DNA of 64,000 nt. Source: Desulforamulus putei DSM 12395 (GTDB lineage Bacteria > Bacillota > Desulfotomaculia > Desulfotomaculales > Desulfotomaculaceae). A model generated the notes under the pieces. That model was not told the origin of the DNA, did no database searches, and was given only the letters and a program-made list of their open reading frames with translations. Shown here piece after piece: positions 11,037-60,331 of this stretch (position 1 is its first letter; each line of letters starts with the position of its first letter). Both the position numbers and the translations under genes were made by a program. The DNA is taken from assembly GCF_900129195.1 (NCBI RefSeq), contig NZ_FQUY01000001.1, positions 248,001 to 312,000 on the forward strand, in the 5' to 3' direction.

Positions 11037-12809
11037 TCACTTCTCCAGTTTTTCCACCAGTTCCTCACTGGGGGTTACATACAGGGTCCTCTGGTTGTCA
11101 TACAACACCATGCCCGGCTTGGCGCCTTTGGGCTTCCACACATGACGGCGCCGGGTGTAATCCACCGGAACCTTGCCGGACTGCCGCCCTTTGCTGAACC
11201 AGGCTGCCAGGGTAGCTGCCTCCAACAGGGTTTGGTCGGGGACATCAGGGCCCCGGTCGCACCGGATAATGACATGGGAACCGGGGATATCCTTGGTATG
11301 CAACCAGAGGTCCTCATCACCGGCCAGCCTCAGGGTAAGATAATCATTTTGCTTGTTATTCTTACCCACCAGGATGGTATACCCGTCAGAAGACATGAAG
11401 GACAGGGGCCGGGGACGGCTCTGTTCTTTTTTCGCTTTACTCCGCCCCTGTTGGACTTTGGGTTTCAGGTAGGTTTGTTCTTCCAGTTCGCCGCGTATTT
11501 CCGTTAAGTCCTCCATATCCGGCGCCTGCAGCACGGCGGTTTCCACCGCCTCCAGATAGGACAATTCGGACTCCGCCTGTTCCAACTGATTTATAACCGC
11601 ATCCCTGGTGTTTTTTGCCTTGAGATACTTTTTGAAATAAGCCTGGGCATTCTGAGCAGGGGTTAAGGACGGGTCCATGGGGATCACCGCTTCTGTGCCC
11701 TCAGGATCATAAAAATTTTGCACCTTTGCTTCGGGTCCCTGTTCGATTTGATAAAGGTACGCTGTCAAAAGTTCTCCGTAAATGCGATATTTTTCTGCCT
11801 TTTCGGCAGTAGCCAGAGATTTTTGGTATAAAGACAATTTCTTTTTCAGACGGCTGATTTCCTTGCGCACCGTTTGCAAAAGGGACTGGCGGTATCCTTC
11901 CAGCAAGCGCAAGTTATTGAGTTTTTCATAATACCGGTCTAAGACACTGCTCATACCGCCCTTTTCTCTACGGTGTGCCTTTATATGCGTAATATCCAGT
12001 GCGGCAAACTCCAGCGGCTGTCCCCGACGGTCCAGCAGCAGGGTAGGTTCAAAGGAACCTTCCTCCAGCATTGTACAGACCCATTGCACCTGCCTCCAGA
12101 GCTGGGTCAGCTCATAGTCCCCGCAGTGTTCCAGCCGGTAGTCCAGGGGCAATCCCGCACGGGCCACCATTTCCCGGCAGGTCTGGGGGCCTACCCCGGC
12201 AATCCTTTGCAGCAGGACGTCGGCCACCCGGGCTGCCAGATCACTGTCCATGATCTCAGTTCGGAACTGTTCTTCCGAGAAGGTACGGGGGTCCCGTTTG
12301 CCCTGCTCCGGAGGGGACAGGTAGGGACGGTTGGGCAAAACCTCCCGGTAGCGGGAAACCGCATGAGAGTAGCGGTGAATCCCGTCTACAATGGTATTGT
12401 TGTCCGGATCCACCAGCAAAATATTGCTGTGTTTGCCCATCACCTCACAAATGAGAAGCTTTTCTCCGGGGCGGCCCAGTTCATCCCGGGAATCGATGGA
12501 AAATTTCAAGATCCGTTCCAAGCCCACCTGTTCCAACGAGCGAATTCGTCCGCCTTCCAGATGTTTGCGGAGGACCATACAGAAAATCGGCGGGGCCAGG
12601 GGGTTGACATAGGAGCCTTCGGTTAAATGCACGCGGGCATCCCGGGCATCCGCCGAAAGCAGCAGTTTTTGCCTGCCTCTCTCACGGGTATGAATCACCA
12701 TTACGATTTCACTGGGTCCGGGTTGTTGAATCTTTTCTACCCGGCCTCCTGTCAATTTATCTGCCAGTTCCCGGGCCACGGCAGCCATCACCAAACCATC
12801 AAAGGCCAT
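11037..12809 (-). CDS. rqcH: RqcH/NFACT-family ribosome quality control factor (FbpA-like)
   Basis: Binds split 50S subunits carrying stalled peptides and recruits tRNA-Ala to add C-terminal alanine tails. The start chosen is MAFDGLVMAAVARELADKL, with GAGAGGAG 8 bases upstream, giving 590 residues. Domains are NFACT-N (about 1-200), a helix-hairpin-helix segment, a long coiled coil (about 270-440), and a C-terminal NFACT-R domain (DGYTILVGKNNKQND, then WLHTKDIPGSHVII). The family's Asp-Arg tRNA motif reads Glu98-Arg99 here. It is divergent from the downstream ATPase gene. The older annotation for this family is fibronectin-binding protein. Confidence 0.93.
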   Translation of the reverse strand: MAFDGLVMAAVARELADKLTGGRVEKIQQPGPSEIVMVIHTRERGRQKLLLSADARDARVHLTEGSYVNPLAPPIFCMVLRKHLEGGRIRSLEQVGLERILKFSIDSRDELGRPGEKLLICEVMGKHSNILLVDPDNNTIVDGIHRYSHAVSRYREVLPNRPYLSPPEQGKRDPRTFSEEQFRTEIMDSDLAARVADVLLQRIAGVGPQTCREMVARAGLPLDYRLEHCGDYELTQLWRQVQWVCTMLEEGSFEPTLLLDRRGQPLEFAALDITHIKAHRREKGGMSSVLDRYYEKLNNLRLLEGYRQSLLQTVRKEISRLKKKLSLYQKSLATAEKAEKYRIYGELLTAYLYQIEQGPEAKVQNFYDPEGTEAVIPMDPSLTPAQNAQAYFKKYLKAKNTRDAVINQLEQAESELSYLEAVETAVLQAPDMEDLTEIRGELEEQTYLKPKVQQGRSKAKKEQSRPRPLSFMSSDGYTILVGKNNKQNDYLTLRLAGDEDLWLHTKDIPGSHVIIRCDRGPDVPDQTLLEAATLAAWFSKGRQSGKVPVDYTRRRHVWKPKGAKPGMVLYDNQRTLYVTPSEELVEKLEK

Positions 12810-12910
12810 AGCATCTTCTCCTCTCACTCCTCTTATTTTAACGAACCGGACATCCTGTGTCACTCTTAATTCTCGGGGGAAAAACATTTCAGGTGCCAAT
12901 ATGACGGGGG

Positions 12911-12959
12911 AGGTACTGTCGTTATTCCCCATTCACTCCTGGGAATAACGACAGTACCT
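12911..12959. other. Perfect 19-base-pair inverted repeat in the rqcH/ATPase divergent region
   Basis: The arm at 12911-12929 (AGGTACTGTCGTTATTCCC) is exactly complementary to 12941-12959 across an 11-base loop. No T-tract follows on either strand. It sits in the 349-base region between two divergent genes, where an operator or a folded leader is plausible. The rest of that region shows an 8-base inverted pair (TACCTCTT near 13005, AAGAGGTA near 13072) and a short heptad array, but no gene. Confidence 0.7.
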
Positions 12960-13097
12960 TGCAAATTCAAAAAGATGGTACATCAAAGGAGTTATTTTCA
13001 GAAATACCTCTTACAGAATTGTTTATCTAAATCTTGGGTCTTTTTTCAGGACAGACAGAATAAATTTTTAAAGAGGTACAAGCATAATCTATTCTAC

Positions 13098-13125
13098 CTG
13101 GCTGACGGCTGACTGCTGAAGGCAG
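13098..13125. repeat. Short heptanucleotide array upstream of the ATPase
   Basis: Four contiguous units CTGGCTG, ACGGCTG, ACTGCTG, AAGGCAG. It is a short member of the family found at other gene junctions and ends 33 bases before the ATPase start codon. Confidence 0.6.
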
Positions 13126-13158
13126 CTAATACAAACTTGTTTTTGGAGGGGTGACACC

Positions 13159-15909
13159 ATGACCACGCGTTGGTTTGCAATGACAAGACGGGAGGTAACG
13201 GACAAACTGGCAACTTGTCCCGACAAGGGATTGGACGAGCAGCAGGCCAGGGAGAGGATGGAACATTTTGGTCCCAATAAATTAATCAGCGCCCGGAAAA
13301 CGCCGCCCTGGAAAATGTTTTTGGACCAGTTCAAGGATTTTATGGTCCTGGTTTTAATTGCCGCTACCCTGGTGTCCGGTTTTTTGGGTGAATGGGCCGA
13401 TGCCATTACCATTATGATTATTGTGGTGGTAAACGCCATTCTCGGGTTTATTCAGGAATTTCGAGCTGAAAAATCCATGGAGGCCCTGAAGGCGCTGACA
13501 GCCCCCGAAGCGAGGGTCGTCAGAAACGGACTGGAAAGAAAGGTGCCAGCCGCCGAGTTGGTGCCCGGGGATGTTGTCTTGCTTGACACCGGGGATAAGG
13601 TGCCAGCGGACATGCGGTTATTGGAAGTTTCCAACCTGGAAGTGGAAGAATCTGCCCTTACCGGAGAATCAAACCCGGTCAAGAAGCGGGTAGCCAATAT
13701 GGCCGGGCAAGAAGAAATCTGCCTGGGAGACACCCGGAACATGGCCTACATGGGGACCGTTGTTGTCCGGGGCAGGGGCAGGGGCGTCGTGGTGGCCACC
13801 GGCATGCACACTGAAATGGGACACATCACCAGAATGATCCAGGAAGCGGAAGATGATCAAACCCCTTTGCAGCGTCGCCTGGAACAGTTGGGCAAGGCAC
13901 TGGTGATTTTTTGTTTACTGGTGTGTGCCCTGGTGGTACTGTTGGGGGTTATGCGAGGAGAACCCCTCTACCAAATGTTTTTGGCCGGTGTCAGTTTGGC
14001 GGTGGCAGCCATACCGGAAGGACTGCCGGCCATTGTCACCATCGCTCTGGCCATCGGTGTCCAGAGAATGATCAAACGAAACGCCATTATTCGCCGCCTG
14101 CCGGCAGTGGAGACCTTGGGCTGTGCTACTATTATCTGCAGCGACAAAACCGGGACCTTAACCGAAAATCAGATGACTGTGCGCCGGGCCCTGGTGGGCA
14201 ATACACAAATCAAAGTGTCCGGGGAAGGATATGACCCCAAAGGGGATTTTCGCTTTGACGGAACGAAGGGACCGGAATTTCACCTGTTTCTGAAATGTGC
14301 CGCCCTCTGCAATAACGCTCGATTAACCAAGGGAGAAATCTCTGTGGGTGGCATTTTCCGCAACCTGAAATCCGGCAAATTAACCAGCGTATGGGGAGTG
14401 GCGGGAGATCCCACCGAAGGGGCCTTGATGGTGATGGCAGCCAAGGGAAAGATCTGGCGCAGAGATTTGGAAAGGGAAGAAAAAAGGGTTTTGGAGTTCC
14501 CCTTTGACAGTATGCGTAAAAGAATGTCCGTCGTTTATCAAAAGGAAAACGGTCAGTTAACAGCCTATGTCAAGGGCGCTCCGGATGTTATACTGGAATT
14601 ATGCACTCACATCTACCGGGACGGTCGCATGATCCCCCTCACTGAAAATACCCGGCAAGAGTTGTTGAAGAAAAATTCGGACATGGCCAGGGAGGCCCTG
14701 CGGGTACTGGCCCTGGCTTATCGTGATTTAGGCTGTTTGGATTCCATCGAAGAACTAAACGAAGATACAGTGGAGCAGCGGTTGATTTTTTTAGGTCTGG
14801 CCGGCATGATTGACCCGCCCCGACCGGCTGCCGTTCAGGCCGTGCAAGCCTGTCGCCGGGCCGGTATTCGGACGGTGATGATCACCGGTGATCACCAACT
14901 CACCGCCCAGGCCGTTGGCAAAGAACTGGGGCTGCTGTCCAAGGGCGCCAGGGTGTTGACCGGAGCCGAACTGGACCGTATGTGTGATGAAGAGTTACAG
15001 GAGGCGGCCGAAAATACGGCTGTCTATGCCCGGGTGACCCCCAGGCATAAGCTGCGGATCGTTCGGGCCCTGAAAAGGAACGGGCACGTGGTGGCCATGA
15101 CCGGAGACGGGGTTAACGATGCTCCGGCTGTAAAAGAAGCAGACATCGGGGTGGCCATGGGGAAGGCAGGGACGGACGTAACCAAAGAAGCATCGGCCAT
15201 GGTCCTGGCCGACGATAACTTCACCACCATTGTGGCAGCCATTGAGGAAGGAAGAGCCATCTACGATAACATCCGTAAATTCATTCGTTATCTGCTGTCC
15301 TGTAACGTAGGGGAAGTATTGACCATGTTCCTGGCTGTGTTGATGGGCATGCCGCTGCCCCTGCTGCCCATTCAAATACTCTGGATGAACCTGGTTACCG
15401 ACGGGCTGCCGGCCATGGCCCTGGGGGTGGATCCCGCAGAAAAGGACATTATGTACCGGCGTCCCCGGGACCCTCAGGAAAGTGTTTTTTCCCACGGTTT
15501 GGGCTGGCGCATTGTCAGCACCGGTACGGTCTTTGCCCTGGGGACCCTGGTGGCTTTTGCCATCGGGCTGATGATGGGGCAGGTGGAACTGGCCAGAACC
15601 ATGGCTTTTAACACGCTGGTGTTCTTCCAACTGTTCTTTGTCTTTTCCTGCCGCTCAGAAAGACATTCCATTTTGGAAACCGGCTTATTGGGCAATCCCC
15701 AACTGGTGCTGGCAGTGACGGTCTCCGCCTGCCTGCAGTTGGCTGTCAACTACATCAGTTTCCTGCAGCCGATTTTTCATACCGTACCCCTGGAGCTCAA
15801 ACACTGGGCGGTGGTGCTGACCATCGCCGTGGTACCCCAGCTTTTGGGAATCGCAGGCAAGGCCGTCAAGGACAGGGCAAAAGAGCGGATTATGTATATT
15901 CGTGCATAA
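13159..15909 (+). CDS. P-type calcium-transporting ATPase (P2A)
   Basis: ATP-driven cation pump of 916 residues in the membrane. It has an N-terminal cation-ATPase domain, TGES actuator loop, phosphorylation site Asp329 in [23 protein letters not shown] hinge and about ten membrane helices. Calcium specificity is inferred from ligand positions shared with SERCA pumps: IPEGLPA in helix 4, NVGEV in helix 5, and NLVTDGLPA in helix 6. The B. subtilis counterpart yloB also lies next to rqcH (yloA). ATG 13159 has GGAGGGGTG upstream. A terminator follows. Confidence 0.93.
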
Positions 15910-60292: not shown

Positions 60293-60331
60293 TGACAGCG
60301 TGACAGGGAGCCATACCCTGTCACGCTGTCA
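60293..60331 (+). terminator. Perfect 16-base-pair hairpin after the MoaD-like gene
   Basis: TGACAGCGTGACAGGG pairs exactly with CCCTGTCACGCTGTCA across a 7-base loop, starting 5 bases after the stop codon. The stem contains a doubled GTGACAG. There is no T-run, so termination is likely but not certain. Confidence 0.55.

Follow-up and report, generated by a model that had tools for sequence, protein, structure and literature searches.

A perfect 19-bp inverted repeat between the divergent rqcH and calcium ATPase genes of Desulforamulus putei: probably a recent, species-specific palindrome

The spacer between two divergently transcribed genes of D. putei was analysed within a window of 64,000 nt (the whole stretch of DNA studied, to which all plain coordinates refer). 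The features considered were as follows.

11037-12809, - strand: rqcH (NFACT/RqcH, YloA type), from profile matches, start likely at 12809
12835-12863, - strand: predicted sigma-A-type rqcH promoter (GTGACA, 17 nt, TAAAAT), from a promoter scan and a 9-genome comparison
12866-13032 (edges approximate), no strand: lineage-specific spacer segment around the hairpin, unalignable to most congeners
12911-12929, + strand: left arm of the inverted repeat, AGGTACTGTCGTTATTCCC, read from the sequence
12930-12940, no strand: loop of 11 nt between the arms, read from the sequence
12941-12959, - strand: right arm, the exact reverse complement of the left arm, read from the sequence
About 13034-13064, + strand: conserved box TTGGGTCTTTTTTCAGGACAGACAGAATAAA upstream of the ATPase gene, recognisable in 9/9 genus members
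13159-15909, + strand: calcium-transporting P-type ATPase (PMR1/SERCA type; YloB-like), from profile matches

The left gene matched the NCBIfam profiles for fibronectin-binding EfbA (E 9.6e-144) and RqcH_arch (E 6.5e-50), both under the curated cut-offs, and the right gene matched TIGR01522 (807.5 bits) and TIGR01116 (737.6 bits), both exceeding the cut-offs. Neither gene is a regulator. The mechanical rqcH ORF starts at 12932, its in-frame upstream ATG (12930-12932, - strand) lying inside the hairpin loop, and the 41 extra codons overlap the predicted promoter. The true start is likely 12809 instead, because a conserved ribosome-binding stretch lies immediately 5' of the ATG at 12807-12809 and the rqcH frames of congeners are shorter, being 597-624 aa in the seven congeners with frames free of internal stops versus 631 aa here; the congener search used a query beginning at 12809, which cannot reveal homology further upstream. 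Automatic annotation may thus pick the wrong rqcH start in 12810-12932 (- strand).

The first-pass annotation, made on the letters alone, had described a perfect 19-bp palindrome with arms 11 bases apart and no terminator tail, and this description was borne out: the arms pair at 19/19 positions (100% complementary), the spacer is 11 nt, and no T tail is present. The hairpin is the sole inverted repeat of at least 12 nt reported in 12600-13300. Perfect repeats of this size are expected by chance 8.7e-6 times per 64 kb and 4.2e-4 times per 3.116 Mb (base composition of the window, loop 3-40), and the 19-bp inverted repeat is real, not a product of chance. Folding of 12905-12965 as DNA gave -21.1 kcal/mol (z = -7.7).

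In a sample of 464 kb (the window and a further 400 kb of its contig, out of the 3.116-Mb genome), perfect inverted repeats with loops of 3-40 and arms of at least 13 numbered 27, compared with none of that size class in one dinucleotide-preserving shuffle of the same sample; long hairpins with perfect pairing are thus an ordinary feature of the D. putei genome. The longest arms in the sample were 19 (two cases, including 12911-12959), 18, 17, 17, and 17. By rough ORF calling, 11 of the 15 hairpins with arms of at least 14 were situated no more than 39 nt behind a gene end. The hairpin at 12911-12959 sits between divergent gene starts, as do, by the same rough calling, those at L108:14407 (with a T tail) and L112:11731, and the one at L108:19778 precedes a gene start. 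Another perfect hairpin of the window, at 60293-60331, has 16-bp arms (TGACAGCGTGACAGGG / CCCTGTCACGCTGTCA) and a 7-nt loop without a T run; the small frame whose stop lies 5 nt before it is presumably MoaD/ThiS-like, as judged by eye.

The position of most of the longest hairpins close behind gene ends would favour an intrinsic terminator or a bidirectional transcription stop. Nevertheless, the terminator scan of 12780-13180 was negative for terminator-like sites with a T tail, and both neighbours are transcribed away from the hairpin and neither towards it. We regard a terminator as extremely unlikely.

Promoter-like signals were found on both sides of the hairpin. On the rqcH side, GTGACA-17-TAAAAT is the only sigma-70-type site in 12780-13180, where 0.7 such matches are expected in shuffles; its predicted -35 is at 12858-12863 and its predicted -10 at 12835-12840, with 25 nt from the -10 to the ATG. 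In a 9-genome comparison made with no shuffled control, the best promoter-like hexamer pair, matching at 9-10 of 12 positions, ended 24-29 nt before the rqcH ATG in all nine genus members. The predicted -10 was TAAAAT or TACAAT in each of the nine, and the -35 was more variable. In local alignment, this stretch scored above shuffles in 4/8 congeners (p 0.01 or less).

On the ATPase side, the box at 13036-13064 reads GGGTCTTTTTTCAGGACAGACAGAATAAA, with the layout GTCTTTTT, 13 nt, and then about AATAAATT. It aligned above shuffles in 8/8 congeners (p 0.003), and the stretch around GGGTCTTTTTT..GGACAG.C.GAATA (13034-13064, + strand) was kept in 9/9 genus members. The distance from the end of the box to the ATPase start is 40-46 nt in seven congeners, 93 nt here, and 154 nt in the remaining congener, G004. 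A second box was not found in the D. putei genome at up to 2 mismatches (reversed control, 1), and a shorter form gave 10 matches at 1 mismatch versus 2 for its reversed control. The box resembles the consensus of sporulation sigma-E-type promoters and is taken as a candidate only. In Clostridium perfringens, yloB is tabulated among genes putatively involved in sporulation (PMC4433262).

The distance from the hairpin is 47 nt to the predicted rqcH -35 and 74 nt to the ATPase box. With promoter positions that are predictions and not mapped starts, the hairpin would lie between two promoter-like signals and belong to neither of the predicted transcripts. This placement speaks against three readings: a leader of rqcH, a terminator, and a conserved operator. 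The first-pass annotation had suggested a folded leader of rqcH; this is not supported, given the predicted, positionally conserved promoter (12835-12863) between hairpin and gene. The wider version of the idea, in which the hairpin belongs to a structured 5' leader of the rqcH mRNA or to the coding part of a longer RqcH from the ATG at 12932, draws on the mechanical ORF that reaches 12932 and on the RNA fold of 12980-12800 (- strand), with z = -2.9 and 3/200 shuffles at least as good. Against it stand the ribosome-binding stretch before 12809, the shorter congener frames (from the search begun at 12809), the predicted promoter inside the supposed 41-codon extension, and, for the leader, the lack of any Rfam match in 12700-13250 at E up to 1. 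It is very unlikely.

The divergent rqcH/ATPase pair is kept in 8/8 congeners and also in a genome of another family (G020). At the syntenic site, a check of conservation in relatives, which had been proposed at first pass, found the hairpin in 0/8 congeners and in 0/9 genomes when G020 was included. The spacer of G004 has an unrelated 9-bp inverted repeat at another position, and no single-arm or imperfect version of the hairpin was found in the spacers of the congeners. The spacer is 349 nt here, 321 nt in G004, and 133-192 nt in the seven other congeners. With the ATPase box and the rqcH promoter stretch as positive controls, the arm, the whole hairpin, and the left flank aligned to congener spacers no better than shuffles (8/8 each; p 0.12-1.0 for the arm and the whole hairpin), and the right flank exceeded shuffles in 1/8 (G007, p 0.010). 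On these alignments, the absence of the hairpin accompanies a generally fast-changing mid-spacer. The sequence on either side of the hairpin mostly fails to align just as the hairpin does, and the nearest congener has 78% RqcH identity, which weakens the reading as a single clean insertion.

These comparisons also bear on regulation. A species-specific operator, in which a regulator binds both arms and controls the ATPase gene, rqcH or both, would agree with the perfect symmetry of the arms and with their place between the divergent promoter-like signals. On the other hand, it is absent in all eight congeners though both flanking signals are kept there, and no second genomic site was detected at up to 2 mismatches. 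Nineteen perfect pairs exceed the need of an operator, which also counts against it. We consider an operator unlikely. The earlier proposal of an operator for the ATPase thus has a low probability in this species; the absence from congeners tells against it, and the well-conserved signal near the ATPase is the other box, at about 13034-13064. That a newly evolved species-specific cis element (an operator or a cruciform insulator) decouples or co-controls rqcH and the calcium pump is quite improbable; if true, it would link ribosome rescue (rqcH) and a sporulation-type calcium pump in this lineage.

Searches for copies were made in the genome of the strain and beyond it. In the 3.116-Mb genome, only the two arms themselves were found at up to 2 mismatches; many copies elsewhere, the outcome by which the first-pass annotation would have recognised a dispersed repeat, were not found, and this candidate was dropped. 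At 3 mismatches, one further site was detected on contig C47, with no partner arm, and the reversed control also gave one match. The exact arm had 0 matches in genome_contigs, from which the own or very near genomes are possibly left out. Across 113 genomes of the order (own included), the 161-nt segment 12870-13030 had no match but itself (E up to 0.001), and a hairpin sharing the outer or the inner half of the present one was found in none of the other 112. A phage or plasmid origin was dropped as well, since blastn of 12865-13035 (E up to 0.01) returned no phage or plasmid match. A 17-mer core of the arm occurred in viral_contigs in 8 stretches, which by eye are four distinct sequences; these were taken as chance or coding matches, the partner arm being absent within 70 nt in 8/8. 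The 2-mismatch match seen in congener G003 consists of one arm only and forms no hairpin. It sits in a gene that we take, by eye, to be birA-like.

Hairpins with the same 10-base foot were found at 16 loci in genome_contigs, and with a 9-base foot at 7 in viral_contigs. The 16 loci belong, by record titles, to Bacillota, Cyanobacteria, Bacteroidota and one candidate phylum. All of them pair past the forced 10 bases, with arms of 11-24, indicating that they are mostly real hairpins, and all diverge from the D. putei arm at the 11th or 12th base. About 14 such hairpins are expected by a rough estimate (27 per 464 kb, extrapolated to 257 Gb and multiplied by 4^-10), so a wider family of same-foot hairpins was not seen. 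With 3 Y1 proteins of the own genome as queries, a Y1-transposase-like match was found near 1/23 same-foot loci (L068), 4.8 kb off.

The D. putei genome itself has 8 Y1-type transposase matches and a multi-copy REP-like family. The core AAGAACCGTCCCC occurs in 49 exact copies (reversed control, 0), 20 of which form 10 opposite-strand pairs spaced 33-45 nt start to start. These cores are mostly placed within AATTCAAGT..ACTTGAATT stems: among the 30 of 49 copies read (L120-L149), 29 had stems of the ATTCAAG type and one (L142) a stem of the GACTCA type, which was also seen near the Y1 locus L018, there with a related core. Y1-type transposase genes are close to some of the copies, such as C41:68260 and C41:83496, and another palindromic repeat, about GGGGTCAGACCCCTTTT, adjoins family copies at L125 and L136. 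The hairpin at 12911-12959 was rejected as a member of this family, since it has another sequence and another plan, is single-copy, and lacks a GTAG edge.

Further tests addressed mobile elements in general. GTAG is absent on either strand of the 10-nt flanks ATGACGGGGG and TGCAAATTCA; a CGTC at 12903-12906 (- strand) is 4 nt away from the left arm on its outer side and not at the palindrome end. No hairpin with the arm of 12911 (arms at least 9) was found at the 8 Y1 loci (L015-L022, 2.7-3.4 kb each), and a single AGGTACTGTC 10-mer on contig C13, with a broken Y1 gene at a distance of about 0.5 kb, is not part of a hairpin. Judged by eye, the hairpin edges show no clear direct repeat of the kind left by target duplication. 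No donor sequence for the hairpin was found, nor were the features of an IS remnant that were looked for (a second copy; a phage or plasmid match), which diverged elements could escape.

A mobile-element remnant or non-autonomous copy, either the terminal repeats of an excised IS or one imported REP/MITE unit, is rather unlikely. The species-specific segment, the Y1-type transposases and the REP-like family are in keeping with it, and some REPs are described as perfect palindromes, such as REPSm, of 16 nt interrupted by 3 nt (PMC8266576). The single copy in the genome, the lack of an exact arm match in genome_contigs (own or near genomes perhaps left out there), of a half-hairpin match in the other 112 genomes and of a phage or plasmid match, and the flanks with neither GTAG nor a clear target duplication tell against it. 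The first-pass suggestion of a mobile-element remnant agrees with the presence in a single species, but no relative, second copy or clear target duplication was seen.

The explanation we favour is that the hairpin is probably a species-specific orphan palindrome, produced by one recent event and without conserved function. It rests on the uniqueness of the arm at up to 2 mismatches, the absence from 8/8 congeners and the position between two conserved signals, together with the self-match of the 161-nt segment among 113 genomes and the spacer that is longer than in congeners. On this view, a palindrome of recent origin, present once and in this species only, would occupy the unconstrained central part of the divergent spacer, upstream of both transcription starts and forming part of neither mRNA. 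A small palindromic fragment may have been inserted, or template switching in replication may have produced an inverted duplication, and the perfection of the arms would be due to youth and not to selection. Of the pair "selection or recent origin" offered at first pass, recent origin fits better, although 19/19 pairing could be explained by selection too. Any effect on rqcH or the ATPase gene would be indirect; for example, an extruded hairpin or cruciform could impede replication or keep the two promoters apart.

If the hairpin is such an orphan palindrome, it would be of little weight as a regulator, and it would illustrate how a striking perfect palindrome in a divergent spacer may turn out to be an insert that is young and not conserved. 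What is conserved in this spacer are the two promoter-like elements flanking the hairpin, of which the ATPase box merits attention.

Compared with known systems, the hairpin resembles operators between divergent genes in its inverted symmetry between two divergent promoter-like signals; it differs from them in its occurrence in 0/8 congeners, in having no second site, and in flanking genes that are not regulators. With the REP/REPIN palindromes and their RAYT transposases (TnpAREP; GTAG and CGTC families), it shares a short palindromic form, an intergenic position and a fitting size, REPs being given as 20-50 nt (PMC8266576), as well as a genome with Y1-type transposases. In contrast to these, it is single-copy, has no GTAG edge, and has no copy beside the 8 Y1 loci. 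Quasi-palindromes and inverted duplications made by template switching differ in that a single-arm or imperfect precursor is missing from the spacers of the congeners and the mutation itself is unseen; the hairpin is like them in being a perfect short repeat with a small spacer, specific to one species and located in spacer DNA.
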